Below the pieces are notes generated by a model. That model did no database searches. It was not told where the DNA came from and saw nothing but the letters and a program-made list of their open reading frames with translations. Both the position numbers and the translations under genes were made by a program. From Idiomarina rhizosphaerae (lineage in GTDB: Bacteria > Pseudomonadota > Gammaproteobacteria > Enterobacterales > Alteromonadaceae), in contig NZ_JAMZDE010000001.1 in the NCBI RefSeq assembly GCF_024159085.1, positions 124,001 through 188,000 of the forward strand: a DNA stretch of 64,000 nt, given 5' to 3'. Each line of letters starts with the position of its first letter. The stretch's first letter is position 1. Positions 47,141 through 62,118 of this stretch are shown here, piece after piece.

Positions 47141-47673
47141 CACGAACCGCAACAAAAGTCTTTACCGTGCTCAGGTGCCGATGCTTTCTTTTCAACAAAA
47201 AGCAGGTTGTTTTCCAGGTGAATATGCTCGTGCAAATCATCCTGCAGCTCTTTTAAGCCTTTATAAAGAGTTGTCCAGGTACCACAGGCGCCTTCCGGCA
47301 GCGTTAAGTTATTGGTCAGTTCATCAATTCTGTTAAGTTCCCCCTCATGCTGAACGTGTTCGCTTTCCATTACTGAAATTGGCCCGCCCGGATAAACACC
47401 ACGAGACAGCAAAGGAAACAGAATTTGTTCTTCTTTTGTCATGTGGCTTTCCAGCTCCTGCATCAGGTTATCCAGGTGTTCAGTCAGACCAACCGGGGCT
47501 TCGGGGTGATCACCATGAACAGCTTCAACGCGCATAGCCAATTGCTTTAACTCAGGAAGCTGTTCGCGATGGCGCTGATGAAAACGCAGATAAATGTGCT
47601 CTATCAAATGCTTGGGTGAAGCGTCCTGCCATTGTTGCTCGGCAGTCTGTAAACGGTCATTGAAAGTACTCAT
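47134..47673 (-). CDS. ytfE: YtfE/RIC-type di-iron protein with C-terminal cysteine motif
   Basis: The 179-residue hemerythrin-like protein belongs to the family that repairs nitrosylated or oxidised iron-sulfur clusters. The di-iron ligands are recognisable in RFHQRHREQLPEL (H35 region), ESHMTKEEQILFP (H77, E81), SVMESEH (H106) and HIHLENNLLF (H150, E154). The N-terminal ScdA_N domain with its YCCGG motif, normal in the 220-residue form, is missing. Instead the protein ends KDFCCGSCQ. Transcription should depend on NorR and sigma-54, since a TGGCCT-N5-TTGCA promoter and three GT-N7-AC sites lie upstream. It is divergent from norR. Confidence 0.88.
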   Translation of the reverse strand: MSTFNDRLQTAEQQWQDASPKHLIEHIYLRFHQRHREQLPELKQLAMRVEAVHGDHPEAPVGLTEHLDNLMQELESHMTKEEQILFPLLSRGVYPGGPISVMESEHVQHEGELNRIDELTNNLTLPEGACGTWTTLYKGLKELQDDLHEHIHLENNLLFVEKKASAPEHGKDFCCGSCQ

Positions 47674-47718: not shown

Positions 47719-47734
47719 TGCAACAAACAGGCCA
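47719..47734 (-). promoter_or_regulatory. Sigma-54 promoter of ytfE
   Basis: On the minus strand the sequence is TGGCCTGTTTGTTGCA, a match to the -24/-12 consensus (TGGCAC-N5-TTGCW) with correct spacing. It ends 46 bases before the ytfE ATG. The same TGGCCT-N5-TTGCA core occurs before norB at 59344. Confidence 0.9.
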
Positions 47735-47776
47735 GCTCCTACCCCGTTAGGATTATTGACTCTCCGGGGTGCCGCG

Positions 47777-47829
47777 GTACTATCAACCCAACCAATAAGG
47801 GTATTTTTAACCTGGGCAGTCAATTTAAC
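47777..47829 (-). promoter_or_regulatory. Three NorR-type enhancer sites for ytfE
   Basis: Reading toward ytfE, the sites are GTTAAATTGAC (47819-47829), GTTAAAAATAC (47801-47811) and GTTGATAGTAC (47777-47787). Each fits the GT-N7-AC NorR core. The steps are 18 and 24 bp, and the nearest site ends 43 positions from the start of the sigma-54 promoter. The same steps and distance recur at norB. The first site ends one base before the norR ATG, so NorR may also repress its own gene (inference). Confidence 0.82.
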
Positions 47830-47830
47830 C

Positions 47831-49375
47831 ATGTTGCAAGAAAGTCTATTAGCAGACCTGCTTACCGAGCAGCCTGCAGCCGTTCGTTTACAAAATTTGG
47901 TCAACACCTTGCGCAGCCACTTTAACTGCGGCGCAGTGGTTTTATTAAAGCTGGATAATGAAGTGCTGCAACCGGTTGCTATTCAGGGACTGGTACGCGA
48001 AGCCCTGGGCCGCCGCTTCGTTGTGGCGCAACATCCCCGGTTAGCAGCATTACTGGCTTCTCGTAACCCCGTGCGGTTTGAGCACGACTCGTCATTACCA
48101 GACCCCTACGACGGACTGCTCGCTGAGCAGCCAGGTAATGCGCTACCCGTTCACGACTGTATGGGTATTAGTTTGTATCTGGAGAATAAGTGCTGGGGTG
48201 TACTGACGTTAGACGCACTGCAACCCGGTACATTTACCGACAACTCAATGATTGAATTGCAAAAGTTTAGCTTGTTCGTTGAGACCGCCGTTCGCATTGG
48301 CCAGCTGGAGCAAAACGTCAGGGCTCTGCGACAAGGCCAGCAGCGCACCATGCCAAAATCCGGAACCACAGAAAGAAACGAATCGGAAATTATCGGGCAC
48401 AGCAAAGCCATTGAAAGTGTACTCAAAGAACTGCGGGTAGTTGCCAGTGCCGATTTGCCCGTGTTGCTACTGGGCGAGACCGGTGTCGGTAAAGAGCTGT
48501 TTGCCCGTGAACTGCACTTGCTCTCACAGCGCAGCGACAAACCCCTTATTTATGTGAACTGCGCGGCTCTGCCGGAATCACTTGCAGAAAGCGAGCTTTT
48601 TGGTCATGTAAAAGGGGCGTTTTCCGGGGCAACCAACGATCGTTCAGGACGCTTTGAAGTCGCTCACGGCGGCACGCTGTTTCTGGATGAAGTTGGCGAG
48701 CTGCCATTATCCATACAGGCCAAATTATTGCGGGTACTGCAAAACGGTGAAATTCAGCGTTTAGGCTCTGACAAATACCGAAAAGTAGATGTTCGCCTCA
48801 TAGCAGCCACCAACCGCAATCTGCGCCAGCAAGTCAGTAATGAAACTTTCCGTGCTGATTTATACCACCGCCTTTCGGTTTATCCTTTGCCAATTCCGCC
48901 ATTACGCGAGCGCGGTGACGATGTGTCTATTCTGGCCGGACATTTTCTCGAGCTAAACCGGGCTCGTCTGGGGTTAAGGGCTTTGCGTTTATCGCCGGAG
49001 GCTGAGCTTGCCATACAGCAGTATCAGTGGCCGGGTAATGTGCGTGAACTGGAACATGTTATAAGCCGGGCCGCTATTAAGCTACTGAGCCACGGAGTGG
49101 AAAAAACCGATATTGCCACCATTGAACCCGACATGCTGGATCTGGATGTGCAACTACCTTTGTCAGCCACCACCGACTCTGGAAAAAACTCCGCAGGAAC
49201 CAGCTTACCTCCGGCTAACGTGTCGATGAAAGAAGCGGTAAATTATACTCAGCGTAAGATGATAGAAGCGGCTTTGAGCCGTCACAACAACAGCTGGAGT
49301 CAGGCCGCTAAAGACCTGCAGCTGGATGCCAGTAACCTGCACAAAATGGCCAGCAGATTAGGAATGAAGTCGTGA
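47831..49375 (+). CDS. norR: Nitric oxide-responsive sigma-54 activator NorR
   Basis: The 514-residue enhancer-binding protein has an N-terminal GAF domain (about 1-165) that in E. coli senses NO through a mononuclear iron. The AAA+ domain has Walker A GETGVGKE, the sigma-54 contact loop (GAFSGA here rather than the usual GAFTGA) and Walker B GGTLFLDEVGELP. The C-terminal Fis-type helix-turn-helix is SWSQAAKDLQLDASNLHKMA. I chose the ATG at 47831, which gives the standard NorR start MLQESLLADLL. The frame is open for 79 codons more but crosses the ytfE promoter. Binding sites matching NorR occur at ytfE and norB. Confidence 0.93.
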   Translation: MLQESLLADLLTEQPAAVRLQNLVNTLRSHFNCGAVVLLKLDNEVLQPVAIQGLVREALGRRFVVAQHPRLAALLASRNPVRFEHDSSLPDPYDGLLAEQPGNALPVHDCMGISLYLENKCWGVLTLDALQPGTFTDNSMIELQKFSLFVETAVRIGQLEQNVRALRQGQQRTMPKSGTTERNESEIIGHSKAIESVLKELRVVASADLPVLLLGETGVGKELFARELHLLSQRSDKPLIYVNCAALPESLAESELFGHVKGAFSGATNDRSGRFEVAHGGTLFLDEVGELPLSIQAKLLRVLQNGEIQRLGSDKYRKVDVRLIAATNRNLRQQVSNETFRADLYHRLSVYPLPIPPLRERGDDVSILAGHFLELNRARLGLRALRLSPEAELAIQQYQWPGNVRELEHVISRAAIKLLSHGVEKTDIATIEPDMLDLDVQLPLSATTDSGKNSAGTSLPPANVSMKEAVNYTQRKMIEAALSRHNNSWSQAAKDLQLDASNLHKMASRLGMKS

Positions 49376-49764
49376 CGCGGGAGCTGTTAATTCGGTTATT
49401 GTGGCGCGCTCTGGCGCTATTTTTTGTATTGCTTGGACTTATTGGCATTGCCCTGCCGGTAATGCCCACAGTGCCTTTTCTCATTGCGGCATTGTGGGCT
49501 GCTAGTAAAGGCTGGCCCCGGCTTGAAGCCTGGCTGCTTAACCACCCTAAATACGGCCCGGACATAAAAGCCTGGCGCGAACACCGGGTCATTAAACGCC
49601 GCTCTAAGATAATCGCCTTAGTCATGATGGCAACCGGGTACCTGGTACTATGGTTATTTGTTCCGCAGGTTCCGGTGTGGTTAAAAGCAATTGTCGGGGT
49701 TGTTCTGGTTGTGGTCGGGTGCTGGCTGGCTACGCGCCCCGACCACTCTCCGGAAGAGACTTAA
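49372..49764 (+). CDS. DUF454 inner membrane protein (YbaN-like)
   Basis: The 130-residue protein has three hydrophobic segments (LLWRALALFFVLLGLIGIAL, then a short one near residue 30, and two adjoining C-terminal spans from about 80). The DUF454 signature is PVMPTVPFLIAALWAASKGW with WLLNHPKYGPDIKAWREH. It begins with GTG overlapping the norR stop codon, so translation is coupled to norR. Small DUF454 proteins often sit near haem or NO genes, but their function is unknown. It is convergent with nnrS (4-base overlap). Confidence 0.85.
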   Translation: MTRELLIRLLWRALALFFVLLGLIGIALPVMPTVPFLIAALWAASKGWPRLEAWLLNHPKYGPDIKAWREHRVIKRRSKIIALVMMATGYLVLWLFVPQVPVWLKAIVGVVLVVVGCWLATRPDHSPEET

Positions 49765-50972
49765 CCCGGGTTACCGTCGGCGCGGGGTGTTGTCAGCACC
49801 TTAAAATAAACCACAACATAAATACCATAAGCCATTGTCCAGGCTATAGCGCTAAACATTAACCACTGGCTGGCTAAATCAGGAGCCAGCCACATTAAAA
49901 AGACCCGGGTTAATGCGGCTATTAATACCAGTAAAAATGCGCCGGTCATTATCAGTTTGGGTTGCAACGGGCGCCCACTATGGCCTAGCGAAACGCGCGC
50001 TATCATGCTGAGGATCATATTCCCCATAGCTCCCGCGGTTAAGGCATGTAACGCAACACTCTGAGTCAGGTCAAAGCCCGCGTAACGCAATGCAAATAAG
50101 GCCAGACCAACCGGAATAAACCAATAAGCTAAGTGCAGTGACCAGAGCAGCGGTACTCTCCAGGTTATCCAGATTTTCCAGCGCGCAACTCTTATACCGG
50201 TTGCCACCGCTGAAACACCAAATAGAACGACCATTATCTGGTTAGGCAACAGCGTGTGCAGATTCAGAAAGTGCACAGCAAAGATAAGCCACAAGCTGCC
50301 TAAGGCGATGCGATCAAGCCAGACAATTGGCGTTACTTTAGGCGTTTGCGTACCGTTGGCAGTAAACATTGGCAGCACTCGTCCGCCAATAATGGCCATT
50401 AACAAGGTCACCAGAAATACTGCGTTGTAAGCACCAAGCACCTGAATATGATAGTGACCAAAGTGTAAGCCGTAGTGCATAAGCAAGTTGCACACCGTCA
50501 GCAACAGCAAAATGGGCACAAAGAATAAATTTCGGGTCTGATTTACTTTTAGCACCATACGCCCGAACAGAAACGCGGCAACAGGTAAAAGACTGACATC
50601 CACGGCTGCAACTAACCACCATGGCAGTTCACCGCCCAACAGCAACATTAACCTGGCGGCTGCCCATAAAACGGTCAGAATAAGCAGAGTTTTGCCATGT
50701 GGTGCCCTAAGTCCGGTCCAGTTCTGCACCGCAGTTAATAAAAAACCCAGGACTATGGCAATAACAAAGCCAAATATCATTTCATGGCTGTGCCAGAACA
50801 TGATGTTGCCATATACAGGCAAACTGAGCTTTCCACCAAGTGCTAACCCCCACAGCAGCATCGCTACGGCACTGAACCCTGCACCCAAAAGGAACAGAGG
50901 CCGAAACGCCTGCCGCAGAATAGGAGTTAACTGCTCTTCTTTTTGTCTGTCTGTGATTTGCATCACTGTCAC
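49761..50972 (-). CDS. nnrS: NnrS family haem-copper membrane protein
   Basis: The 403-residue protein has about twelve membrane helices and the NnrS motifs FRPLFLLGAGFSAVAMLLW, FWHSHEMIFGFVIAIVLGFL, GGRVLPMFTANG and HALTAGAMGNMILSMIARVS. NnrS proteins bind haem and copper and protect cells during NO stress. They often belong to NsrR or NorR regulons. The ATG is preceded by GGTGACAGTG. An NsrR-like palindrome lies 14 bases upstream of the start codon, in the promoter region. Confidence 0.92.
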   Translation of the reverse strand: MTVMQITDRQKEEQLTPILRQAFRPLFLLGAGFSAVAMLLWGLALGGKLSLPVYGNIMFWHSHEMIFGFVIAIVLGFLLTAVQNWTGLRAPHGKTLLILTVLWAAARLMLLLGGELPWWLVAAVDVSLLPVAAFLFGRMVLKVNQTRNLFFVPILLLLTVCNLLMHYGLHFGHYHIQVLGAYNAVFLVTLLMAIIGGRVLPMFTANGTQTPKVTPIVWLDRIALGSLWLIFAVHFLNLHTLLPNQIMVVLFGVSAVATGIRVARWKIWITWRVPLLWSLHLAYWFIPVGLALFALRYAGFDLTQSVALHALTAGAMGNMILSMIARVSLGHSGRPLQPKLIMTGAFLLVLIAALTRVFLMWLAPDLASQWLMFSAIAWTMAYGIYVVVYFKVLTTPRADGNPG

Positions 50973-50985
50973 CGCTTATTAATAA

Positions 50986-51008
50986 AAGATACATTTTTAA
51001 TATACCTT
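50986..51008 (-). promoter_or_regulatory. NsrR-like palindrome upstream of nnrS
   Basis: The plus-strand sequence is AAGATACATTT-T-TAATATACCTT, an 11-1-11 palindrome with 8 of 11 symmetric positions. It resembles the NsrR consensus AAGATGCATTT-N-AAATGCATCTT. NsrR itself is not encoded in this window, so the assignment depends on the motif alone. Confidence 0.6.
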
Positions 51009-51068
51009 TTATTTTGACGAAGATCGACGCTCTACCACTAAAAGTCAGTTAATACCTATTTAGAGATT

Positions 51069-51956
51069 CTAGCCTGTCGCTAGCCCCGCCAGTTGCAACC
51101 AGTAGCCATTGTTCTCTTTGCTCGTCAGGGTCACGGGGTGTTCCCCATTGATATTACTGCGGAAGCGTTGTAGCCAGTCGAAAGTCCCCTCGGGTTGCGG
51201 ACTAATACGCACAATATCGACCAGGCCATTCATACCCGGCAGCTGGTTTATCAGGTTATAACGTGTACCCGATTGCGTCTGAATACCATTAAGCACAAAC
51301 ACCTGCTGACCTTCCTGACTTTTCACTTCCCGGCCTTCCGGGTACTTTATGCAACACAGCTCGCACTGATCTTTCGGGCGGTTCTCCGAGCGGGCAGTAA
51401 AGCAACGACCAGACCAGGCCAAAGGTATATGGCCAAAGGAGAAAACTTCCACTTCAAAGCAGTCCCTCACGGTGTCAATAAGGTTGTGCTGTAAGACGTC
51501 CTGCAGCCAGTCGCGGGAAAGTTCAAATGGAACCACCCAGCGAGTCATACCCATATCAATGAGACGGCGCAGGCTCTGGTGATTATAAATATTAATGGCC
51601 GGCCCGGCGGTAAAGTTCAGCCCCTGCTCCTGCAATAAGTTAATAGCGCTGACATCATTGGCTTCGACATCAAACTCGCCATTATCGCAATATTTACCCA
51701 GCTCTCTTAGTTCAGCCGGAGCCTCTAGTAGAGTCATTGTCGATAGTGTTACTTTTTTCCCGGCTTCTCTTAGCATGTGCGCTATCGCCAGATAGTCATC
51801 CAGCTTTAACTCACGACGCTTACTGCAAACGGTTTCGCCCAGATACACATGGTCAACATCTGACTCCGCGGCTTGCTGGTAAAAATCAAAAACCTGTTGT
51901 TTCGGCCAAAAATACAGAATAGGTCCTAGAGAAAACTTCATATTGGTTACTTCCAT
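51069..51956 (-). CDS. ubiV: O2-independent ubiquinone biosynthesis protein UbiV (U32 family)
   Basis: The 295-residue protein belongs to the peptidase-U32-like family. Cysteines for a 4Fe-4S cluster are seen in AWSGRCFTARSENR, KDQCELCCIKYPEG and an earlier conserved region. UbiV forms a heterodimer with UbiU that hydroxylates ubiquinone precursors without oxygen, using prephenate as the oxygen donor in E. coli. The start MEVTNMKFSLGPILYFWPKQ overlaps the end of ubiU by 10 bases. An internal methionine five codons on (MKFSLGP) is the likelier start. Confidence 0.9.
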   Translation of the reverse strand: MEVTNMKFSLGPILYFWPKQQVFDFYQQAAESDVDHVYLGETVCSKRRELKLDDYLAIAHMLREAGKKVTLSTMTLLEAPAELRELGKYCDNGEFDVEANDVSAINLLQEQGLNFTAGPAINIYNHQSLRRLIDMGMTRWVVPFELSRDWLQDVLQHNLIDTVRDCFEVEVFSFGHIPLAWSGRCFTARSENRPKDQCELCCIKYPEGREVKSQEGQQVFVLNGIQTQSGTRYNLINQLPGMNGLVDIVRISPQPEGTFDWLQRFRSNINGEHPVTLTSKENNGYWLQLAGLATG

Positions 51957-52939
51957 TTCCGGTGGTACGCGCCCAGCGTCGTTTGACTGCCTTCAGAAAG
52001 TGAGGCCAGAACCGAATTCCAGTTATCTTCCACTTCAAAGGCATCAGGGTCGGTCATAACGGCATCGATAGCCTGACGCCAGACTCTGGTAATTTGCGAC
52101 ACATAAGCCGGGCTGCGCTGCCGACCTTCAATTTTTAAGGAGGCAATGCCTTCTTTATAAAGCTGCGGCAACAAACTTAAGGTATTCAGGCTGGTCGGTT
52201 CTTCCAGTACATTGTAAATTTCGTCGTCAACCGAAAAACGCCCTTTGCATAAAGTGGGATAACCCGCCTTTTCATTTTCACCAAAGCGGTCTATAAGCAC
52301 GCCGTTAAGCCGTGACTCCAGTTTGTTATCCTGTTCGTCCCACTCGACAAAAGCTGCGGGCGAACAGGCACCTGCTGTATTGGGCGACTCACCGGTCAGA
52401 TAAGAACTTAAGTAGCAGCGCCCTTCTGCCATAATGCAGAGGCTGCCAAAAGCAAAAACCTCCAGCTCGACGTCAGTAGTGCGCGCCAGTGCTCTGACTT
52501 GCTGCATAGACAGCACTCGGGGCAAGACCACCCGTGACACGCCAAACTGCTGGTAAAAACGGATGGCTCCGGCATTGGTTGCAGAGGCCTGCACCGATAA
52601 GTGCCTTTCAACTTTGGGGTACCTTTCAGCGGCGTAAGCCAGAACCGCGAGATCTGCAATAATCAATACATCAGCACCGGCCAGAACAGCATCATCAACT
52701 GCCCGACGCCATTTCTCCCAACTGTTGGCATGTGCAAAGGTATTAATGGCAACGTGCAGTTTACGACCATGCTTGTGCACATAGTCCGCTGCTTCTGCTA
52801 GCTTCATCTGATTTAAATTCAGACCCGCGAAATGACGCGCATTGGTTTCATCCTTTAACCCCACATAGACCGCATCGGCACCATTTTCTATAGCCGCTTT
52901 TAATGCAGGGATACTTCCGGCCGGACACAGCAATTCCAT
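51947..52939 (-). CDS. ubiU: O2-independent ubiquinone biosynthesis protein UbiU (U32 family)
   Basis: The 330-residue partner of UbiV begins MELLCPAGSIPALKAAIENG. The cluster cysteines are in FGSLCIMAEGRCYLSSYLTG, GACSPAAFVEW and TLCKGRFSVDDE, the full set known for UbiU. It acts in the cytoplasm on quinone intermediates bound by UbiT. The overlapping ubiU-ubiV pair is divergent from ubiT across 93 bases, the same arrangement as in E. coli (yhbT versus yhbUV). Confidence 0.93.
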   Translation of the reverse strand: MELLCPAGSIPALKAAIENGADAVYVGLKDETNARHFAGLNLNQMKLAEAADYVHKHGRKLHVAINTFAHANSWEKWRRAVDDAVLAGADVLIIADLAVLAYAAERYPKVERHLSVQASATNAGAIRFYQQFGVSRVVLPRVLSMQQVRALARTTDVELEVFAFGSLCIMAEGRCYLSSYLTGESPNTAGACSPAAFVEWDEQDNKLESRLNGVLIDRFGENEKAGYPTLCKGRFSVDDEIYNVLEEPTSLNTLSLLPQLYKEGIASLKIEGRQRSPAYVSQITRVWRQAIDAVMTDPDAFEVEDNWNSVLASLSEGSQTTLGAYHRKWK

Positions 52940-53032
52940 TTAAAACCTCTATTTAATATTTTGTAGCACCCTAATTATTAATTCATTATAGTGCTCAAAA
53001 CTTTTATTTTGTTGTTGCAAACGGAGCAAAAT

Positions 53033-53530
53033 ATGAATACCACCAACTGGGTATCTTCTATACCCAAAATAATTCGGCCAATAAATAAATTAATTCCGTC
53101 GAAATTTATTAATTTCGGATCTGAAAAGTTATTAAACCTTTTATTTAAGGAAGAAATTTCTTCAGGAGAGCTTAATTTTATTTCCGGGAACATAATAGAG
53201 ATAAAGGTCAAAGACATTGATTTATCTCTATTTTTGACGTTAAAAGGAAGTCAACTGAAATCCCTTAAGGGCCCAGTAGAAGCAGACGTACAGCTATCAT
53301 CAGACGGTGACGCACTGCTTTTGCTGATTTACGGAAAGGTTGACCCCGACACATTATTCTTTAATCGAAAACTAATGGTGAAAGGCAATACCGAATTAGG
53401 GTTACATTTAAAAAACTTCTTAGACACTATTGAGGTAAATCAAAAGCTACCAAGGGCCTTATATTTAATAGGAGATCGGTTTAGTGATTTTATTTATAAA
53501 GAAAAAGGTGAAACAATACAGACAAGTTAA
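53033..53530 (+). CDS. ubiT: O2-independent ubiquinone biosynthesis lipid-binding protein UbiT (SCP2)
   Basis: This 165-residue SCP2-domain protein has ISSGELNFISGNIIEIKVKD and VDPDTLFFNRKLMVKGNTEL, the conserved C-terminal part of YhbT/UbiT. UbiT binds the hydrophobic quinone precursors for the anaerobic hydroxylations. The ATG at 53033 has ACGGAGCAAAAT before it. The coding sequence is clearly more AT-rich than its neighbours, with many AAA, ATT and TTA codons. Next on the strand is hemN. Confidence 0.85.
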   Translation: MNTTNWVSSIPKIIRPINKLIPSKFINFGSEKLLNLLFKEEISSGELNFISGNIIEIKVKDIDLSLFLTLKGSQLKSLKGPVEADVQLSSDGDALLLLIYGKVDPDTLFFNRKLMVKGNTELGLHLKNFLDTIEVNQKLPRALYLIGDRFSDFIYKEKGETIQTS

Positions 53531-53541
53531 TTAAATAATTT

Positions 53542-53555
53542 TTGACTGGGGTCAA
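53542..53555 (+). promoter_or_regulatory. FNR-like palindrome before hemN
   Basis: TTGAC-TGGG-GTCAA is a perfect 5-4-5 palindrome close to the FNR consensus TTGAT-N4-ATCAA. It ends 9 bases before the hemN ATG and overlaps the ribosome-site region, which is too close for ordinary activation of hemN. It may act as a roadblock, serve another promoter, or be fortuitous. Confidence 0.45.
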
Positions 53556-53564
53556 GGGGTGGTT

Positions 53565-54926
53565 ATGAGTACAGTTACCTGGGATAAAGAGTTAATAGAA
53601 AAATACAACATTAATGGACCTCGTTATACGTCTTATCCCACAGCGTTAATGCTTTCCGAACAATTTTCAGAAAGCCGCATAGAAGCCGCGCTGAAAAATG
53701 CAAATGACGGACTGTGTCTGTATTTACACTTGCCTTTCTGCCACAAGCTTTGTTATTACTGTGGTTGCAATAAAGTAATTACCCGCCACCAGCATAAAGC
53801 CGATAAGTATCTGGATTACCTCGCCCGCGAAATGGCGATGTACCAACCTATGGTAAAGGACAAAAAGATCCGCCAGATTCATTTAGGCGGTGGTACCCCT
53901 ACTTTCTTGACCGAGCAGCAACTGACCCGCCTAATGGAACTGGTTCATCAGCATTTTACTTTCGCGGACAACCCTGAAGTCAGCATAGAGATTGACCCGC
54001 GCAGCTGCAGCGACGAAAAGCTTCGCCATTTACGCGAGTTAGGTTTTAACCGTGTGAGCTACGGGGTGCAGGACTTCGACAAGAAAGTTCAAATTGCTAT
54101 CAATCGCGTACAGGACATTGAGCTTATTGCGCATCAGCTAAAACTCAGTAAAGAGCTAGGCTTTGACTCAATTAACTTAGACCTTATTTACGGCCTGCCT
54201 TACCAGCGTCCGGAAACCTTTAAGAAGTCTATTGAGCAAGTCATTGAAATGGATCCCGATCGCATTTCAGTGTTTAGCTACGCCCATTTACCCCAGCGTT
54301 TCGCTGGTCAGAAGAAAATACCGGAAGAGTCCATTCCGCAGCCATCGGTTAAGCTGAGTCTGCTGGAACAAGCCATTACTCAGCTGAACGACGCCGGTTA
54401 TCAATTTATCGGCATGGACCATTTTGCAAAAAAAGACGATGGCCTTGCCATAGCTCAGCGCGAAGGACGTTTGCAGCGTAACTTCCAGGGCTACACCACC
54501 GACGGTCAGGACGCACTGCTGGGCTTAGGTGTTTCATCCATTAGTCAGGTAAACGGTGTGCTATGGCAACACGAAAAAGAGCTACCGGCTTACTACAAAA
54601 TGATAGATAACGGACAAAAACCCATAATAAAAAGCATGGCGTTAAACGACGAAGACAAGCTGCGAGCCGCATTAATTTCTCAGGTTATTTGCCATTTCGA
54701 GCTTGATATAGAAGCTTTTAAAGCAGAGTGGGATCTGGACGATTTCTGGGCTCATTTCGCCGAAGCCATACCACTACTAAAACCATTCATTGAAGACGGC
54801 TTAGTCGACGTTTCCGACAAGAAGCTCCGCGTCACCGACTTAGGTCGCCTCTGGGTTCGCAGCATCTGCGCCTGTTTCGACGAATACCTGGATCACGGCC
54901 AAAACCACTACTCCAAAGTCGTTTAG
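53565..54926 (+). CDS. hemN: Oxygen-independent coproporphyrinogen III oxidase
   Basis: This 453-residue radical SAM enzyme decarboxylates coproporphyrinogen III to protoporphyrinogen IX without oxygen, for haem synthesis. The 4Fe-4S motif is FCHKLCYYCGC (CxxxCxxC plus the extra cysteine of true HemN). GGGTPTFL binds SAM. RYTSYPTA near the N-terminus and VSIEIDPRS are HemN hallmarks that separate it from HemW. The start at 53565 has AAGGGG 5 bases upstream. It follows ubiT by 34 bases, pairing anaerobic haem and quinone synthesis. Confidence 0.95.
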   Translation: MSTVTWDKELIEKYNINGPRYTSYPTALMLSEQFSESRIEAALKNANDGLCLYLHLPFCHKLCYYCGCNKVITRHQHKADKYLDYLAREMAMYQPMVKDKKIRQIHLGGGTPTFLTEQQLTRLMELVHQHFTFADNPEVSIEIDPRSCSDEKLRHLRELGFNRVSYGVQDFDKKVQIAINRVQDIELIAHQLKLSKELGFDSINLDLIYGLPYQRPETFKKSIEQVIEMDPDRISVFSYAHLPQRFAGQKKIPEESIPQPSVKLSLLEQAITQLNDAGYQFIGMDHFAKKDDGLAIAQREGRLQRNFQGYTTDGQDALLGLGVSSISQVNGVLWQHEKELPAYYKMIDNGQKPIIKSMALNDEDKLRAALISQVICHFELDIEAFKAEWDLDDFWAHFAEAIPLLKPFIEDGLVDVSDKKLRVTDLGRLWVRSICACFDEYLDHGQNHYSKVV

Positions 54927-54996
54927 CTGGCTGGGGGCGGTAGCTTCCGAAAAGCGAGTGCGACGAAGCATCCAACGAGATCGAGGTAGAGCAACA

Positions 54997-55140
54997 GGGG
55001 AAGGTGTTGAGGGAAAGGGCTGTTGCGCTCAGAGAGTGTGTGGCGCCAAGGATGGCGCCACCCAAGCCCCCAGGGATAGGTTTACGGCGTCTCTCTGAGC
55101 GCAACAGCCCTTTTCCGAGAAAGCCTTTCCCTCTCCCTCC
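54997..55140. repeat. Large nested inverted repeat between hemN and nhaD
   Basis: A 23 bp perfect inverted repeat has arms at 55014-55036 and 55091-55113 (core GGGCTGTTGCGCTCAGAGAG). It encloses two copies of the self-complementary TGGCGCCA (55041-55048 and 55053-55060). Imperfect G/A-rich and C/T-rich flanks extend the symmetry to about 54997 and 55140. It fills most of the gap between convergent hemN and nhaD, so it could be a terminator, but its size and complexity suggest a dispersed repetitive element. No transposase is present. Confidence 0.65.
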
Positions 55141-55141
55141 A

Positions 55142-56575
55142 CTAACTCAGGAAAGTGGCTTGGTTTAGCCATAGGTGTAGCAGGATGCTGGCTGCGTAGC
55201 CTATTGCTATTACCGGTGTCCATTTTAGATGCGACATAAAGGTGTAGTAGCCTCTGGCTTGTCCCATTAAGGCAACGCCTGATGCGGAGCCAATAGAAAG
55301 CAGGCTGCCGCCGGTGCAACAGGCCAGGGTTATTAACAGCCAATGTCCGGTGGACATTTCAGGATCCATGGACAGTACCGCGAACATCACAGGAATGTTA
55401 TCCACGAGAGCGGAGACCACGCCGAGAATAGTGTTTGCTATGGTTGGGTCTAAACCACCATAAAGAGACTCGGACAGTAAACCTAAGTAACCCATAAAGC
55501 CTAAACCACCGACACACAGCACAATGCCGTAGAAAAACAGCAAAGTGTCCCATTCGGCACGGGAAACCCGGCTAAACACGTCGAATGGCACTACACCACC
55601 GAGTTGTTGCAGGCGCTTTTGGTCGCCCTCGCGTTCAGCCATTGCACGTTTGCGCGCCAACGAACCCGGCAGGGTCATACGCAGGAAGTAGCCGAAAAAC
55701 TGTAAATAACCCAAACCCATCATCATGCCAAGCACCGGCGGTAAATGCAGCCAAATATGACACGCGACCGCGGTCGCAACAGTTAATAAAAACAAAAACG
55801 TAATGCGCAGGGCTCCGCGCTTAAGCTCCACTTCGGTATGCAGCGTTGTCGGGCTTTTGTTCTCAATAAAGAAGCTCATGATAATTGCGGGTATTAAGTA
55901 GTTCACTAACGCCGGTAAAAACAACTGCAGGAACTCGGTAAACTCTACCTTGCCGGACTGCCAGACCATAAGCGTGGTTATGTCCCCAAACGGGCTGAAT
56001 GCACCGGCGGCATTAACCGCTATAACAATGCTGGAACAGCATAGCGCGACAAACTTTTTATTGCCCTCGGCAACTTTCATGACCACAGCCGACATCAACA
56101 GAGCGGTGGTCAGGTTGTCCGCAATAGGCGAAATGAAAAACGCTAAAAAGCCGGTTATCCAGAAGAGCTTTCTATAGGTAAAGCCCTTTTTCATCAACCA
56201 GGCGCTGAGCGCATCGAACAAACGCCGTTCTTCCAACGCATTGATGTAGGTCATTGCCACCAGCAAAAACAACATCAACTCTGCGAACTTTAGTAAGTTT
56301 TCCCGGAAGGCTTCTTCCGCCAGAACAGCATTGTCGCCACTGTAAACAAACCCTATGAGTATCCATATAACCCCCGCCGCAACCAGCACAGGCTTGGATT
56401 TTCTCATGTGCAGTTTCTCTTCACCCATCACCAAAATGTACGCAAGGATAAAAATAACGATGGCAGCGTAACCAACGGTAGATGACGTGAGATCGATACG
56501 GTCAGCAGAGGGTTCTGCAGCCAGTACTGATACCGAAAACAGCAGCGAAATGACGGTAAACAGCAATCTTTTCAT
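55142..56575 (-). CDS. nhaD: Na+/H+ antiporter NhaD
   Basis: The 477-residue protein has an N-terminal signal-like helix (MKRLLFTVISLLFSVSVLAA) and about twelve further membrane spans. Motifs of the NhaD/ArsB-type ion transporter superfamily are FISPIADNLTTALLMSAVVM, NAAGAFSPFGDITTLMVWQS, VDNIPVMFAVLSM and GGSLLSIGSASGVALMGQ. It exports sodium (or lithium) in exchange for protons at alkaline pH and high salt. It is convergent with hemN. Confidence 0.93.
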   Translation of the reverse strand: MKRLLFTVISLLFSVSVLAAEPSADRIDLTSSTVGYAAIVIFILAYILVMGEEKLHMRKSKPVLVAAGVIWILIGFVYSGDNAVLAEEAFRENLLKFAELMLFLLVAMTYINALEERRLFDALSAWLMKKGFTYRKLFWITGFLAFFISPIADNLTTALLMSAVVMKVAEGNKKFVALCCSSIVIAVNAAGAFSPFGDITTLMVWQSGKVEFTEFLQLFLPALVNYLIPAIIMSFFIENKSPTTLHTEVELKRGALRITFLFLLTVATAVACHIWLHLPPVLGMMMGLGYLQFFGYFLRMTLPGSLARKRAMAEREGDQKRLQQLGGVVPFDVFSRVSRAEWDTLLFFYGIVLCVGGLGFMGYLGLLSESLYGGLDPTIANTILGVVSALVDNIPVMFAVLSMDPEMSTGHWLLITLACCTGGSLLSIGSASGVALMGQARGYYTFMSHLKWTPVIAIGYAASILLHLWLNQATFLS

Positions 56576-56766
56576 AGCGTTTTTTCAGTGCAGTTCAGAG
56601 CCAAAAGATAAACTGCACCAACTCTCCTTGTTGGTTGGTGGTTAAGAATAAAAGTGGTTGATTATTCCGGCTGGAATTTTCGCGCGGAGATTACCACAAA
56701 ACTCGAATTCTGAGAGCTACAGAAAGAGGGAAAATTAATCCCTCTCTGTAAGCATTTTGTGCCACT

Positions 56767-58605
56767 TTAGCTTGCTCTGCGCAATACCCTATTGGATTGT
56801 GCCGCACCCACAGCAACCTCGGCTGGCTGCTTGCGATGATAATGACGCAAATGGTGTTCTTTTCGACGGCCTGCACTAAAAGCAGACACACGTTTTAAGT
56901 AACCAATAACCCGGGTTCCGTAGTCGATATCTTCAGAACCACAGCAGGAACATTCGCTTAAGGTGCGTTTATCAATGTGCTCGCAGGCGTTACAAATGGT
57001 AATTTTGACGTTAATGCAGAAGTAATTACAGCCCGTTTTCGCGGCAATATTGAGTAACGACAAATAGCCTGAGGTGTTGAGCTTTTCATCAAGGTTCAAA
57101 TGCAATGCCGAACCGCCATCCAGGTATTCAATCAATTCTTTTCCGTGAAGAACCAGTTTATCCAGTGCATTGGCATCTTCGTCTTCTACGGCATAAAAGT
57201 AGGAGTTGTAGCAGTCACGGCTCACTTTATAACCGTCAGCTCTGTCCCACTTGGCGTTCTTCACACCCAGGTTTTCTGCTGGCACAAACTCAGTGTTAAA
57301 CATATACCCATACTCTTTTTTCGCAGCTTTATTAGCGTCGTAAATCACTTTTAAATGGCTTTGCACAAAGTCTTTATAGGTCTGGTTGTTACCCGCGGTG
57401 ATCCCCTGCGATTCCGCCGCTTCAACCATGCCGTTAATACCAATAGTCAAAAACTGCTTGTCCAGGGTAATAAAGCCGGCGTCATAGACCGTTAACAGAC
57501 CCGCTTCCTTGTATTCTTCCATCAACTTCCTGTAAGCCACCTGATATTTGTGAATTTTGCTGACTTCTTCCTCTAAATCTCTGTCATCCTGCACCAAACG
57601 GTTCATGTTCATGGTAATGACATTAATAGAGCCCGTAGCGACACCACCGGCACCCAGGGTATAAGAAAAGGTATTGTCGCTAATTTCGCTACGTAGTCGG
57701 CAACATGAAGCTAACGAGTCGGCATTGTCAGATAAATAAACAAAGAAGGAATTACCATTTGCCATCTCACCGGCTACTTTTTCGGCAAATGCCTGATCTT
57801 TGCATTGTCCCTTGTCGGTTAACATGGCCACAGTCACCACCGGGAAGGTCAAAATCGTCTTTTCCCGTTCCTTATTAAACCAATCCAGGAAGAAGTCCTG
57901 CAACGCACTGACTGAGCTCCACTCCGGTTTCGTGAAGTCCGCAGGGAAAACAAACTCACCAAACATGCTGTCAAAGTAATGCTGGTCGTAAATGGAAATA
58001 TTCCAGAACACGCTCTGGTAGCCCCGGGCAGCCGCAGGCTGATTCAGCGCATAAACCACGTGCTGCAGATGGTTTTCAATTTGGTGACGATGCGTATTCA
58101 AATAATCGTCGCCGTAGTCTTTGCGGGCAAAGTAATCGAAGTAGGTTAGAAACTCGACCGTAGCGACTGCCCCGGCAAACTGCGAGCTTACGGCAAAAAC
58201 AAAGTTCACAAAAGTACCGCAGAAAGACTCCAGATGCTTAGGCGCCTGAGACTCGCCACCCAGCTTGGTTAAGCCATCACGTAAAAACGGGTACATAGTG
58301 ACTGAAACACAGTAAGGTTTCAGGCTGGTTTCGTCGTGCACGTAAATTTCATGATCTTCAATTTGTCTAACGTACTCTTTTGCCAGGTCGTTACCAAAAA
58401 GCTCACTGATTTTATTACTGACTTGCTTGCGGTTAACCTGCACAAAAAAGTCTTTCATTAACTCAGCTTCAAGCGTTGCTATATTCTTTTGTGTGACGTT
58501 GGCGTTTGCATCCATTTTCGAGCCATCAGCCGCATTTTGAGCATGCAGATACTCGTGAATGAAATCGACTTTGCCAGTGACTTGTTCTTCGTTTAAGCGC
58601 AACAT
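56767..58605 (-). CDS. nrdD: Anaerobic ribonucleoside-triphosphate reductase
   Basis: The 612-residue class III ribonucleotide reductase makes dNTPs without oxygen. The thiyl region includes SLASCCRLRSE, and GAGGVATGSINVITMNMNR lies in the barrel. The zinc site has four cysteines in TICNACEHIDKRTL and SECSCCGSEDID, and the glycyl radical residue lies in GTRVIGYL. The N-terminal ATP-cone typical of the enterobacterial enzyme is absent, so allosteric activity control is probably reduced. A tail of about 25 residues (HYHRKQPAEVAVGAAQSNRV) extends past the usual end. It starts 2 bases after nrdG. Confidence 0.93.
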   Translation of the reverse strand: MLRLNEEQVTGKVDFIHEYLHAQNAADGSKMDANANVTQKNIATLEAELMKDFFVQVNRKQVSNKISELFGNDLAKEYVRQIEDHEIYVHDETSLKPYCVSVTMYPFLRDGLTKLGGESQAPKHLESFCGTFVNFVFAVSSQFAGAVATVEFLTYFDYFARKDYGDDYLNTHRHQIENHLQHVVYALNQPAAARGYQSVFWNISIYDQHYFDSMFGEFVFPADFTKPEWSSVSALQDFFLDWFNKEREKTILTFPVVTVAMLTDKGQCKDQAFAEKVAGEMANGNSFFVYLSDNADSLASCCRLRSEISDNTFSYTLGAGGVATGSINVITMNMNRLVQDDRDLEEEVSKIHKYQVAYRKLMEEYKEAGLLTVYDAGFITLDKQFLTIGINGMVEAAESQGITAGNNQTYKDFVQSHLKVIYDANKAAKKEYGYMFNTEFVPAENLGVKNAKWDRADGYKVSRDCYNSYFYAVEDEDANALDKLVLHGKELIEYLDGGSALHLNLDEKLNTSGYLSLLNIAAKTGCNYFCINVKITICNACEHIDKRTLSECSCCGSEDIDYGTRVIGYLKRVSAFSAGRRKEHHLRHYHRKQPAEVAVGAAQSNRVLRRAS

Positions 58606-58607
58606 AA

Positions 58608-59081
58608 TTATTCTCCTGTTTGAAACTTGCAGTTCAATAACTGCTGGGTTCGTAAATCATAAAAGCGTTGATTGGTGGTTGGGCTTTCCAGCCCGCCCCG
58701 GGCAGCAATCCACGGTCCGGTTTTTAAATAAGTCAGTTGTTCGCGAAGGGTCAGTGAGACATTCTCATACCCGGTATACAGACAGGTCTCCAGCCCTTCG
58801 TTTCGTACTTGCTTTAATAGTTTCAGTAGTGCTTCGGGCTGCCATTCGCCGCCCAGAAATAGAACGCAGCTAATTAACCCGTGGTATTTTTCCAACTGCT
58901 GCGTAAGATGCTCCGGCGTTAGCGGAGAACCACTTCCCACCGGCCAGCTATCCACACTGTGGCAGCCTTTACAGCCAACCGGGCAGCCGGTAATGGTGTA
59001 AGCTAAGGCAACTTCCCCCGGCACTTCTTGCCAGACAACTTGCTCCGCACTGTAATGTAGCCTTGTAGGGTAAACCGCCAT
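58608..59081 (-). CDS. nrdG: Anaerobic ribonucleotide reductase activating protein
   Basis: This 157-residue radical SAM activase generates the glycyl radical on NrdD. The cluster motif is GCPVGCKGCHSVDSW (CxxxCxxC), and LFLGGEW and LYTGYENV are further family blocks. It lies upstream of nrdD, whereas most genomes have nrdD first. The ATG at 59081 is only 2 bases from a probable NrdR box, and the ribosome site is weak (GGTGTTTT). Tight repression in oxygen-rich growth is therefore plausible. Confidence 0.9.
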   Translation of the reverse strand: MAVYPTRLHYSAEQVVWQEVPGEVALAYTITGCPVGCKGCHSVDSWPVGSGSPLTPEHLTQQLEKYHGLISCVLFLGGEWQPEALLKLLKQVRNEGLETCLYTGYENVSLTLREQLTYLKTGPWIAARGGLESPTTNQRFYDLRTQQLLNCKFQTGE

Positions 59082-59083
59082 AA

Positions 59084-59131
59084 AACACCATATATTGTTA
59101 TTAATTTAAAAATAATCACTACATATTGTGC
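59084..59131 (-). promoter_or_regulatory. Two NrdR boxes upstream of nrdG-nrdD
   Basis: On the minus strand GCACAATATGTAGTGA (59116-59131) and AACAATATATGGTGTT (59084-59099) each resemble the NrdR consensus ACACTATATATAGTGT. Their starts are 32 bp apart, close to three helical turns, the usual tandem spacing. The proximal box ends at the nrdG start codon. Confidence 0.78.
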
Positions 59132-59230
59132 TTCAGCATAGTTAAGTCTGTTTCGGCCGCATTGATCCCGCTCAAGATTTAAGCAAGAAGGAAAAAATGA
59201 CGGGATCCTTAAAGAGATACCCATTAAAGG

Positions 59231-59301
59231 GTAGAAATAACCTTTAGGGTACTTTTAACCACAAAAGTAAAAACAACCTAATAAACTTAAGTCATAAATA
59301 C
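59231..59301 (+). promoter_or_regulatory. Four NorR-type enhancer sites for norB
   Basis: GTAGAAATAAC (59231), GTACTTTTAAC (59249), GTAAAAACAAC (59267) and GTCATAAATAC (59291) fit the GT-N7-AC core. The steps are 18, 18 and 24 bp. The last site ends 43 positions from the start of the sigma-54 promoter. The three proximal sites have the same spacing as the three at ytfE, and the fourth, distal site is extra. Confidence 0.82.
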
Positions 59302-59343
59302 CCTTTTAAAATTAAATGCCTTATTTATCAATAAATTAAAATA

Positions 59344-59359
59344 TGGCCTCAATATTGCA
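59344..59359 (+). promoter_or_regulatory. Sigma-54 promoter of norB
   Basis: TGGCCTCAATATTGCA has the -24 (TGGCCT) and -12 (TTGCA) elements with a 5-base gap, as at ytfE. It lies 93 bases before the norB ATG, leaving a leader of roughly 80 bases. Confidence 0.9.
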
Positions 59360-59421
59360 CTTAGGTGAATGCATAGCGAATTAATAAAAATTCTCTGCTC
59401 ATAAATCTATGGAGTAACAAT

Positions 59422-59469
59422 ATGAAGCTGTTCAGCATCAAGGAGGTCAATTATGGCCGGTTATCGTAA
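59422..59469 (+). CDS. Possible 15-residue leader peptide overlapping norB
   Basis: An ATG at 59422 preceded by GGAGTAACAAT opens a frame MKLFSIKEVNYGRLS that ends at TAA 59467-59469, 17 bases inside norB in another frame. It lies within the norB leader, and its codons cover the norB ribosome site (AAGGAGG). Ribosomes translating it would pass over, and could re-initiate at, the norB start. It may be a coupling or attenuation device, or chance. Confidence 0.4.
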   Translation: MKLFSIKEVNYGRLS

Positions 59470-61693
59470 GCTTTGGTGGACGTTAATTGCGGTTCTCGCA
59501 ATTACCTTTGGACTTTTAGGGTATTTTGGAACGGAAGTTTACCGGGAGGCTCCGCCTATTCCGGATAAGTTCATGAGTACCAATGGCAAAGTCATTGCAA
59601 CCGAAGAGTCTGTTTTAGACGGGCAAACTGCCTGGCAGTCTGTTGGTGGCATGCAACTCGGTTCCATTTGGGGGCACGGTGCTTACCAGGCGCCCGACTG
59701 GACAGCTGACTGGTTACACCGCGAACTTCTTGCCTGGCTGGACATTCGCGCTAACGAAGTCTTTGGCAAACCCTACGAACAGCTTGAGGGTTCGCAGCAA
59801 AATCAACTTGAATACGAGCTGAAAGAAGAGTATCGGACTAATACTTACGATAAAGCTTCAGATACCGTTATTCTAAGTGAACGACGCATTCAGGCTATTG
59901 AGCAGACCGGCGAGTATTACTCAAAGCTGTTCAGCGATGACCCGGAGCTGCGCCCTACCCGCGTTAGCTACGCCATGAAAGAAAATACGCTTCCTTCAGA
60001 AGCACGTCGTGCGGTAATGAACGACTTTTTCTTCTGGACAGCCTGGGCCGCATCAACAGAGCGCCTTGACTCCGACATTACTTATACAAACAACTGGCCA
60101 CATGAAACCTTGATAGATAACGTGCCTAGCGCGGAAAATATTATCTGGTCTATTGTCAGCGTTATTCTCTTAATTGCTGGTGTCGGTTTCTTAATCTGGG
60201 CATGGGCGTTTTTACGTCAACACGATGAAGAAGACCCTGTTGCCCCAGAGCATGATCCCATAGCCAAAATTAAGCTCACGCCCTCACAAAAAGCCTTAGG
60301 TAAATACCTGTTTATTGTGGTTGCGCTGTTCTCGCTACAAGTTTTACTGGGAGGCTTAACCGCACACTACACAGTCGAAGGACAGGAATTCTACGGCATT
60401 AATATTTCAGAGTGGTTCCCCTACTCACTAACCCGTACCTGGCACATTCAGGCTGCCATGTTCTGGATTGCCACTGGGTTCCTGGCTGCAGGCCTCTTTC
60501 TTGCGCCGATTATTAATGGCGGTAAAGATCCTAAGTATCAGAAACTGGGTGTTGATATCCTGTTCTGGGCATTGGTTCTGGTTGTTGCAGGTACCTTTAT
60601 TGGGAACTGGTTAGCCATTGCGCAAATTATGCCTGAACACCTGAACTTCTGGTTAGGTCACCAGGGTTACGAATACGTCGACTTAGGTCGCCTATGGCAA
60701 ATTGGTAAGTTCCTGGGTATCGTTTTCTGGCTGGTACTGATGATGCGTTGTGTTGTCGGAGCATTTAAAGTTAAAGGCGATAAGAACTTACTGGCGTTAT
60801 TTACCGCTTCGGTTGTTGCCATTGGCCTGTTCTACGGTGCCGGCTTCTTCTACGGCGAGCGTACTCACATTTCTATTATGGAATACTGGCGCTGGTGGAT
60901 TGTTCACCTGTGGGTAGAAGGCTTCTTCGAAGTGTTCGCAACGGCTTCACTGGCCTTTATTTTCCACAGCATGGGCTTGGTTTCCCGCCGCATGGCAACC
61001 GTCGCGGCATTAGCTTCCGCATCACTGTTTATGCTCGGTGGTGTACCAGGTACGTTCCACCACTTGTACTTTGCCGGTACAACCACTCCGGTCATGGCCG
61101 TGGGTGCAACGTTCTCAGCATTAGAAGTCGTGCCGCTGATTGTTCTTGGCTATGAAGCCTGGGAGAACTACAGCCTGCAAAAACGAGCAACCTGGATGCA
61201 ACGCATTAAGTGGCCGTTACTTTGCTTCGTTGCGGTTGCCTTCTGGAACATGCTTGGCGCAGGTGTACTCGGCTTTATGATCAACCCACCTATTTCGCTG
61301 TACTACGTGCAAGGCTTGAACACTACGCCAACTCACGCACATGCAGCTTTATTTGGTGTGTACGGATTCCTGGCGCTTGGTTTCGTGCTATTGATTCTGC
61401 GCTACATTCGCCCGAACCTGCAGTTCGATGAAAAACTGATGAAAATGGCATTCTGGACCATGAACATTGGCTTAGCACTAATGCTTTTCACCAGCTTGTT
61501 GCCGGTCGGTTTCATTCAGTTCTACGCCGCTGCCAGCGAAGGCTTGTGGTATGCGCGCAGTGAAGCCTTTATGCAACAACCTCTATTACAGAACTTACGC
61601 TGGTTCCGTACCGTTGGCGACATGGTCTTCATCGTAGGTGCGTTAGGCATCAGCTGGCAAGTTGTAAAAGGCTTAAAGCATAAGTCTGATTAA
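59453..61693 (+). CDS. norB: Quinol-dependent nitric oxide reductase (qNOR)
   Basis: The 746-residue single-subunit enzyme reduces 2 NO to N2O with electrons from quinol. Residues 1-225 form the N-terminal span and periplasmic domain typical of qNOR (SVLDGQTAWQSVGGMQLGSI, WGHGAYQAPDWTADWLHREL). About twelve further helices carry the haem-copper-oxidase fold. Metal ligands lie in TRTWHIQAAMFW, HLWVEGFFEVFATA (the glutamate that helps hold FeB), GTFHHLYFAGTT and THAHAALFGVYGF. No NorC is needed or present. Its promoter region carries sigma-54 and NorR sites. The strong AAGGAGG ribosome site is 7 bases from ATG. Confidence 0.95.
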   Translation: MAGYRKLWWTLIAVLAITFGLLGYFGTEVYREAPPIPDKFMSTNGKVIATEESVLDGQTAWQSVGGMQLGSIWGHGAYQAPDWTADWLHRELLAWLDIRANEVFGKPYEQLEGSQQNQLEYELKEEYRTNTYDKASDTVILSERRIQAIEQTGEYYSKLFSDDPELRPTRVSYAMKENTLPSEARRAVMNDFFFWTAWAASTERLDSDITYTNNWPHETLIDNVPSAENIIWSIVSVILLIAGVGFLIWAWAFLRQHDEEDPVAPEHDPIAKIKLTPSQKALGKYLFIVVALFSLQVLLGGLTAHYTVEGQEFYGINISEWFPYSLTRTWHIQAAMFWIATGFLAAGLFLAPIINGGKDPKYQKLGVDILFWALVLVVAGTFIGNWLAIAQIMPEHLNFWLGHQGYEYVDLGRLWQIGKFLGIVFWLVLMMRCVVGAFKVKGDKNLLALFTASVVAIGLFYGAGFFYGERTHISIMEYWRWWIVHLWVEGFFEVFATASLAFIFHSMGLVSRRMATVAALASASLFMLGGVPGTFHHLYFAGTTTPVMAVGATFSALEVVPLIVLGYEAWENYSLQKRATWMQRIKWPLLCFVAVAFWNMLGAGVLGFMINPPISLYYVQGLNTTPTHAHAALFGVYGFLALGFVLLILRYIRPNLQFDEKLMKMAFWTMNIGLALMLFTSLLPVGFIQFYAAASEGLWYARSEAFMQQPLLQNLRWFRTVGDMVFIVGALGISWQVVKGLKHKSD

Positions 61694-61701
61694 CCCTTAA
61701 T

Positions 61702-61740
61702 AAACCAAGCTTCTGCAATTGTTGCGGAAGCTTGGTTTTT
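61702..61740 (+). terminator. Rho-independent terminator of norB
   Basis: AACCAAGCTTC pairs with GAAGCTTGGTT, extended by GCA/TGC inside, and is followed by TTTTTCTTTT. It ends the norB transcript before the small cysteine protein gene. Confidence 0.9.
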
Positions 61741-61768
61741 CTTTTGCGGGGAGTTTACTGGAGGATGT

Positions 61769-62044
61769 ATGAGCCGCAAACCCGATACCAAAACCGCTAT
61801 GTATCAGTTACTCGATGTCATTCGCGAGCACATCCCTTTTGGCTTAAAAGAAGCGGATATGTGCCAGGGTATTTGTCGTGGTTGCTCTAAAAAAATGATG
61901 GAAATGCTGGATGCTGAAGTCAGCCAATGGCAGGCCGACCTGGACAACGAACTGGCGGAGCCAACCTTAGCGGACCTAGTTTTTATGGAGAAGTTAGCGC
62001 GCCGAACCGAGAAAGTTCTTCACCGCAATAAACTGATGAATTAA
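61769..62044 (+). CDS. Small C-x3-C-x2-C protein, unrecognised
   Basis: The 91-residue soluble, helical protein has one cysteine cluster, MCQGICRGCSKKM (C-x3-C-x2-C near residue 33). That spacing can hold a metal or an iron-sulfur cluster, and it is the spacing seen in radical SAM enzymes, but the protein is far too short to be one. The remainder (WQADLDNELAEPTLADLVFM) is acidic. The ATG has GGAGGATGT before it, so it is well translated. It lies between norB and the NarX-like kinase (74 bases from it), suggesting a role in nitrogen-oxide sensing or metal handling (inference). Family not recognised. Confidence 0.65.
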   Translation: MSRKPDTKTAMYQLLDVIREHIPFGLKEADMCQGICRGCSKKMMEMLDAEVSQWQADLDNELAEPTLADLVFMEKLARRTEKVLHRNKLMN

Positions 62045-62118
62045 TCCGCACTTATTTGTTCCCTTCTTTCGAAATGCTATATCATGTACCGGAATTTTCA
62101 CTCAGGACGTCGCCCGGA

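Follow-up and report, generated by a model that had tools for sequence, protein, structure and literature searches.

In two described relatives of the system considered here, NorR activates norVW (Escherichia coli) and norAB (Ralstonia, now Cupriavidus, eutropha) through three tandem GT-N7-AC sites (Rodionov 2005, PMC1274295, in the portions of text covered, as for all sources cited below). The three enhancer sites of E. coli norVW are described as essential and as a scaffold for a higher-order NorR oligomer, and NO at the GAF iron lifts the repression of the AAA+ ring (PMC2941729). NorR increases the expression of ric (norA), a ytfE-type gene, in R. eutropha (PMC9268430), and in R. solanacearum norA is reported to be under NorR and norB not (PMC9045102). 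Predicted targets include norB in Ralstonia and Shewanella putrefaciens as well as dnrN, which is ytfE in that naming, in Pseudomonas stutzeri, where the predicted hmp sites at −192, −173 and −148 give steps of 19 and 25 (PMC1274295).

Two control regions of similar kind are found in Idiomarina rhizosphaerae (GCF_024159085.1, genome size 2.87 Mb), within a stretch of 64,000 nt (NZ_JAMZDE010000001.1, positions 124,001 to 188,000 of the forward strand), hereafter the window. It is very likely that they constitute a two-promoter NorR regulon of the R. eutropha norA-norB type, built on a lineage version of the NorR spacing, and that type is extended here to a genus in which our searches found NorR, YtfE and a quinol NO reductase but no Hmp, NorV or Hcp.

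Anatomy of the ytfE and norB control regions

At the ytfE side the GT-N7-AC sites are stepped 18 and 24 from distal to proximal and lie 43 from the −24 element (47777−47734); at the norB side the steps are 18, 18 and 24, again with 43 (59344−59301). The start-to-start geometry (d1/d2/d3) is thus 18/24/53 at both promoters, d3 running from the start of the proximal site to the start of the −24 element, i.e. 43 plus the site length. Tandem GT-N7-AC sites upstream of a −24/−12 promoter, as in the NorR family, are present at both. An earlier note on this DNA had pointed out this shared arrangement (TGGCCT-N5-TTGCA, three sites stepped 18 and 24, 43 to the −24 element), and all of its coordinates and arithmetic check exactly; the further norB site that it placed another 18 bp upstream is there too, and turns out to be limited to some lineages of the genus (Table 1 and below).

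Table 1. Features of the norR-ytfE and norB loci, in window coordinates
Feature	Position	Strand	Description
ytfE/norA-type di-iron (hemerythrin-fold) protein	47134..47673	-	179 aa; Pfam PF01814; without N-terminal ScdA_N
ytfE sigma-54 promoter	47719..47734	-	TGGCCTGTTTGTTGCA; predicted; model R1 81.3 bits for whole region
ytfE proximal putative NorR site	47777..47787	.	GT-N7-AC; 24 bp from middle site
ytfE middle putative NorR site	47801..47811	.	GT-N7-AC; 18 bp from distal site
ytfE distal putative NorR site	47819..47829	.	from sequence; ends 1 base before norR ATG; adjacency conserved in the clade
norR	47831..49375	+	514 aa; GAF, AAA+ sigma-54 activator (GAFSGA), Fis-type HTH
norB outermost (fourth) putative NorR site	59231..59241	.	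GT-N7-AC; same place in 5/8 genus members
norB putative NorR site, distal of three	59249..59259	.	GT-N7-AC
norB middle putative NorR site	59267..59277	.	GT-N7-AC
norB proximal putative NorR site	59291..59301	.	GT-N7-AC
norB sigma-54 promoter	59344..59359	+	TGGCCTCAATATTGCA; predicted; model R1 77.3 bits for whole region
norB, nitric oxide reductase	59453..61693	+	746 aa; Pfam PF22085 (NorB cytochrome c-like) and PF00115 (COX1)

The NorR protein belongs to its family by NCBIfam NF003451 (716 bits, cutoff 476) and carries the Pfam domains GAF and Sigma54_activat, HTH_8 reaching 19.5 bits, below its own cutoff of 22. YtfE scores 214.8 bits against the NCBIfam YtfE profile, under the cutoff of 254, and covers profile positions 61-216 of 220. 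We take NorB to be of the quinol type from its single-subunit fused layout. An rpoN gene is present in the genome (542 bits, cutoff 277).

The likeness to R. eutropha NorR-norAB comprises the three GT-N7-AC sites, the ytfE-type norA, the adjacency of norR to ytfE/norA, the placing of norB under NorR sites and the NorR protein itself, which falls in a clade with a Cupriavidus NorR. Unlike the single norA-norB operon of that type, ytfE (minus strand) and norB (plus strand) lie here 11.8 kb apart, each with its own array, and compared with the Cupriavidus locus the outer step is 18 instead of 20 and norB has a fourth site. E. coli norVW shares three GT-N7-AC sites, the middle-to-proximal step of 24, a sigma-54 promoter and a divergent norR, as norR (plus) diverges here from ytfE (minus), but its steps are 21/24/66 and its target is the flavorubredoxin. 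The predicted hmp and dnrN promoters of P. stutzeri, from another lineage, also have three sites, with steps of 19/25 where positions are given, that is, for hmp only. Since NorR control of norA and a quinol norB is known from R. eutropha, ytfE plus norB as targets, set by the earlier note against the flavorubredoxin of E. coli, are no departure for NorR; the regulon is known in kind. Its particulars in this lineage are the separation of ytfE from norB, an outer step of 18 bp and the fourth site.

Chance does not readily produce such regions. The core TGGCCT-N5-TTGCA occurs only twice in the window, at these two promoters, and the looser TGGC-N7-TTGC 11 times against 4.2 expected. Lone GT-N7-AC is frequent (221 in the window), but the three-site 18/24 array is found twice, against a mean of 0.005 (maximum 1) over 200 dinucleotide shuffles, and once a properly spaced sigma-54 element is required as well, the window still has two and none of the 200 shuffles has any.

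Conservation in the genus and competing readings

Of the 19 genus genomes, 8 have norR, and these same 8 are the ones with ytfE and norB; the norR start lies 11.6-20.3 kb from the norB start. The ytfE spacing is exactly 18/24/53 in seven of the eight, G006 having 30/24/53; that of norB is 18/24/53 in six, 18/24/52 in one and 18/25/52 in one, so that no step deviates by more than 1 bp in any of the eight. The fourth norB site lies 18 bp further up in five members and 24 bp in one, and is absent in two. Free drift of the spacings among relatives, named beforehand as what would speak against the claim, is thus not what is seen. Queries with E. coli NorV, Hmp and Hcp matched in none of the 19 genomes (cut-offs 1e-20, 1e-30 and 1e-30), and hence no flavorubredoxin target of the E. 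coli type was found in the genus; this set held no positive genome, and the same proteins matched at other NorR loci (local tblastn). A short leader ORF before norB, recognised by eye in I. rhizosphaerae, G016, G005 and G007, is altered in G003 and G001 and absent in G004 and G006, and was not retained as a feature.

How far the regulon extends was addressed with a sequence-only promoter model (R1), built from ten promoters and run on 35 genomes. Its training comprised the I. rhizosphaerae promoters and those of five relatives, leaving outside G005, G006, ytfE of G016 and norB of G001. In the I. rhizosphaerae genome the model gives only two strong sites, ytfE and norB; beyond these it scores the norB sites a second time, as an echo from the reverse strand (23.1 bits), and one match of 16.7 bits. 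This supports the small regulon that had been suggested, for a scan that scores pre-selected candidates and in which NorR promoters of other spacing would score poorly. Both promoters are recovered in all eight norR-bearing genus genomes (36.6-86.9 bits); in the 11 that lack norR no score exceeds 22.7 bits. G007 shows one additional match, of 24.5 bits.

The ten promoters (5 ytfE, 5 norB), drawn from the 13 genus promoters with exactly 18/24/53, align without gaps over 117 columns. Their GT/AC cores are 100% identical because the promoters were picked on that geometry, and the informative figure is that of the spacers: ytfE and norB promoters share 29% there, against 49% in the N7 centres and 70% in the sigma-54 element. 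For the I. rhizosphaerae pair spacer identity is 24%, in agreement with the earlier remark that the flanking DNA is otherwise unlike. Since relatives keep the spacing while ytfE and norB spacers share only 29%, the spacing looks to be under selection, and the earlier note had judged it so.

A competing account, which we regard as rather unlikely, derives the norB control region from the norR-ytfE intergenic region, by duplication when a norA-norB unit was split, so that the spacing would be shared by descent and not through selection on it. Such units do exist: norR, ytfE and norB stand together behind one array at ten loci of another genus (L179-L185, L187, L188, L192), and in Cupriavidus (L039) an array of 20/25/53 precedes ytfE, with ytfE and norB both on the strand of the array. 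The distance between norR and norB starts within Idiomarina likewise suits a common origin. However, the spacer identity between the two promoters is near chance, similar spacing is met at hmp and norV promoters of distant genera, and even if the region was copied the spacing has outlived the sequence.

It is improbable, in turn, that NorR plays only a secondary part and that norB or ytfE answers mainly to a different NO regulator, either NsrR or a factor of the FNR type. The genome does encode a repressor resembling NsrR, with 40% identity to the E. coli protein, and positions 59369-59385, close to the expected start of norB, read as an imperfect ATGCAT-N5-ATTAAT; against this, two-mismatch NsrR-like matches number 6 where 8.8 are expected, i.e. 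not above chance, and the first half-site of the norB motif is altered in G007.

The link of the arrays to norR was followed over 37 ytfE loci, eight from the genus and 29 further ones (88 genomes matched, and loci came from 30 of them). Upstream of ytfE an array is present at 22 of the 23 loci that hold a NorR match of more than 45% identity, a set that is not independent since eight come from Idiomarina and ten from another single genus, and at none of the 14 that do not; the one exception, L178, has norR beside ytfE and no array found. That NorR is a bystander, the sites being palindromes arisen by chance in A+T-rich DNA or belonging to some other sigma-54 activator, is hardly credible. GT-N7-AC is indeed a weak motif, and the NorR query also matches seven further activator-like sequences in the genome (one with internal stops), but the arrays follow norR in these loci and genus-wide, and across the clade the ytfE distal site stands next to the norR ATG.

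On the reading as a two-promoter NorR regulon, ytfE and norB, both protective against nitric oxide, are probably switched on by the same NorR through equally spaced sites. By analogy with known NorR biology, NorR on three palindromic sites (four at norB) would assemble as an activator ring over a fixed enhancer, NO binding at the GAF-domain iron would let the ring act on sigma-54 polymerase at the −24/−12 promoter 43 bp downstream, and the di-iron YtfE and the quinol NO reductase would be raised together.

Spacing across NorR-type loci

A wider comparison covered 67 NorR-type loci: 20 from relatives, 33 named (L039-L071), 13 class-wide and that of E. coli K-12. The named loci are 33 of 80, the other 47 (partial or weaker matches) having been dropped before any scan, and the class-wide sample comes from 15 of 369 genomes with a NorR match, two of which were already known. 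With steps left free (14-32/14-32/35-110) in upstream DNA, on the strand leading away from norR, a three-site array with sigma-54 element is found at 43 of the 67 loci, and 39 of these 43 fall inside a narrow box of 17-22/24-26/(51-54 or 65-68) that was set post hoc, after a first look at 34 of the loci. After shuffling of the upstream DNA (100 rounds), the mean number of loci with an array is 0.02 per round, and not one array falls in the box. The four arrays outside are G006 (30/24/53), L056 (20/14/53), L158 (20/24/100) and L160 (20/24/99). The spacing is therefore not particular to the ytfE/norB pair, contrary to what one could gather from the earlier note, because the same box recurs among NorR-type loci (39 of 67).

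At 24 of the 67 loci no exact three-site array was found upstream of norR. Of the 23 that were re-examined, nine have a pair of sites spaced 22-26 bp with d3 at 53 or 64-67, and 14 have nothing; at the remaining one, L064, an array of 19/24/67 lies before hcp, downstream of norR. Taking instead, with no box, the array of best sigma-54 element before a recognised target (45 loci), d3 is 51-54, 66-67 or 99-100; the exceptions, 79 (two cases) and 90, come from arrays that can also be read as 54 or 66. The targets of the array promoters are hmp, ytfE, norV and hcp. At six further norB loci, from outside the genus, arrays were found at two (L033, 18/25/64; L036, 20/24/54), which leaves 4 of 14 norB loci with none (L032, L034, L035 and L037), L034 and L035 having ytfE directly upstream. 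Kinship reduces the 42 boxed promoters to 29 clusters at 80% NorR identity and to nine at 65%.

Two other accounts of the spacing were set aside. Compensation between steps (a fixed total of 45 bp with a sliding middle site), for which some groups, with 19/26, 20/25 and 21/24, seemed to speak, is contradicted by r(d1,d2) values of 0.06 (42 promoters), −0.03 (29 clusters) and 0.05 (nine clusters), for promoters pre-filtered to the box. A role of helical phase in setting the promoter distance is not favoured, since by arithmetic ~52, ~66 and ~100 are not whole turns apart.

The 18/24/53 of Idiomarina is then best read as the lineage version of a ruler of ~17-22/24-26/51-54 or ~66, irrespective of the target gene, that is met in beta- and gamma-proteobacteria at the majority of NorR promoters whose three-site array can be recognised, and the fixed steps would fit a scaffold of set register. 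As norA and norB stand apart in this genus and norB has the same ruler on unrelated DNA, the spacing itself may be the functional signal. We offer only tentatively, and at less than even chances, the general form of this idea: a ruler common to the family, with 17-22 as outer step, 24-26 as inner step and discrete promoter distances of ~52, ~66 and ~100, that outlasts spacer turnover and change of target, as a rigid scaffold setting the register of the activator ring. It predicts that altering the 18, 24 or 43 bp should abolish activation and that altering spacer sequence at constant length should not. The portions of the NorR literature covered, which lie outside the primary reports on NorR sites, state no spacing rule and give positions for one promoter; the measured ruler and some of the side features are, in that sense, modestly new, a coincidence of spacing noticed by eye having become a rule measured over 67 loci.

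NorR phylogeny, the norR start and the GAF domain

In a NorR tree of 66 of the 67 proteins (FastTree, midpoint root, the cut L153 left out), the 15 ytfE-linked NorRs, that of I. rhizosphaerae included, fall into a single clade in which Cupriavidus agavae, Achromobacter and one Pseudomonas are represented. At 14 of these 15 loci the distal palindrome ends 1 base before the norR ATG; at L041 three bases intervene. The usual ribosome-binding position thus falls inside a putative NorR site, so bound NorR should curb its own expression: in the ytfE-linked clade, NorR occupying the ytfE enhancer, whose outermost site borders on the start codon of norR, probably also limits norR expression, judging from the layout of the sites.

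Residues aligned with E. coli R75, D96, D99, H111, C113 and D131 are identical in all 16 NorRs aligned; they are residues around the GAF iron site. R75 is an iron-site residue of the GAF domain of E. coli NorR, and R81 is required there for the off state without NO (PMC2941729). The R81 position, a further difference from E. coli, is Ala in the I. rhizosphaerae protein, and Arg is found in only 2 of the 16; the off state of this NorR may accordingly differ from that of E. coli, or be leaky. The GAFSGA motif, considered as a special feature of this NorR, is ordinary, as 22 of the 67 NorR-type proteins carry it; 43 have GAFTGA and two were unread (locus cut or mis-framed).

Location of the YtfE cysteine motif

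The N-terminal ScdA_N domain, which in most bacterial RICs contains the DfCCgG motif (according to PMC9268430), is absent from the Idiomarina rhizosphaerae YtfE, and this protein ends at its C-terminus in HGKDFCCGSCQ. The same terminus, HG[KE]DFCCGSCQ, is found in all 8 of the 8 YtfE proteins of the genus. A comparison of the YtfE loci L164-L171 and L173-L178 returned four relatives (L173, L174, L175 and L177) in which CCGSCQ at the C-terminus accompanies the N-terminal motif. The sequences look as if the motif had shifted to the opposite end of the protein and ScdA_N had been lost afterwards.

Coordinates of the features discussed
Feature	Position	Strand	Remark
ytfE	47134-47673	-	
Outer NorR palindrome through first base of norR	47819-47831		
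norR	47831-49375	+	
nnrS	49761-50972	-	PF05940
NsrR-like stretch	50978-50994		two mismatches
norB surroundings	51069-63915		
NsrR-like repressor	G000:C5:131215-131619 (own genome)		40% identical to E. coli NsrR

NorR and its binding sites

Replacement of R81 in E. coli NorR by Ala, Ser or acidic residues is described in PMC2941729 as giving NO-independent activity. At the aligned position the I. rhizosphaerae NorR has Ala, and Arg is found in only 2 of the 16 aligned NorR proteins, both norV-linked; the E. coli-type off switch may not be usual for the NorR family.

Among the 15 loci of the ytfE-linked NorR clade, 14 have a single base between the outer palindrome and the start codon of norR, and therefore the usual ribosome-binding position falls inside a predicted NorR site. 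An exact-site scan returned just two NorR sites, 22-26 bp apart and with the sigma-54 element 64-67 bp beyond, in L014-L018, L020, L054 (Vibrio) and L058 (Shewanella). L019, on a neighbouring branch outside this group, has three.

nnrS, norB surroundings and an NsrR-like repressor

nnrS is located between norR and norB. Genes linked to an anaerobic lifestyle surround norB, namely ubiV, hemN, nrdD and one for a sensor kinase of the NarQ/NarX type, whose score is below the curated cutoffs. Upstream of nnrS there is no match to R1, the model trained on ten ytfE/norB promoters of the genus (own included), and the frequency of matches such as the NsrR-like stretch found there is no better than chance. 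The NsrR-like repressor itself has a match at E<=1e-20 in 15 of the 19 genus genomes, whether norR is present or not.
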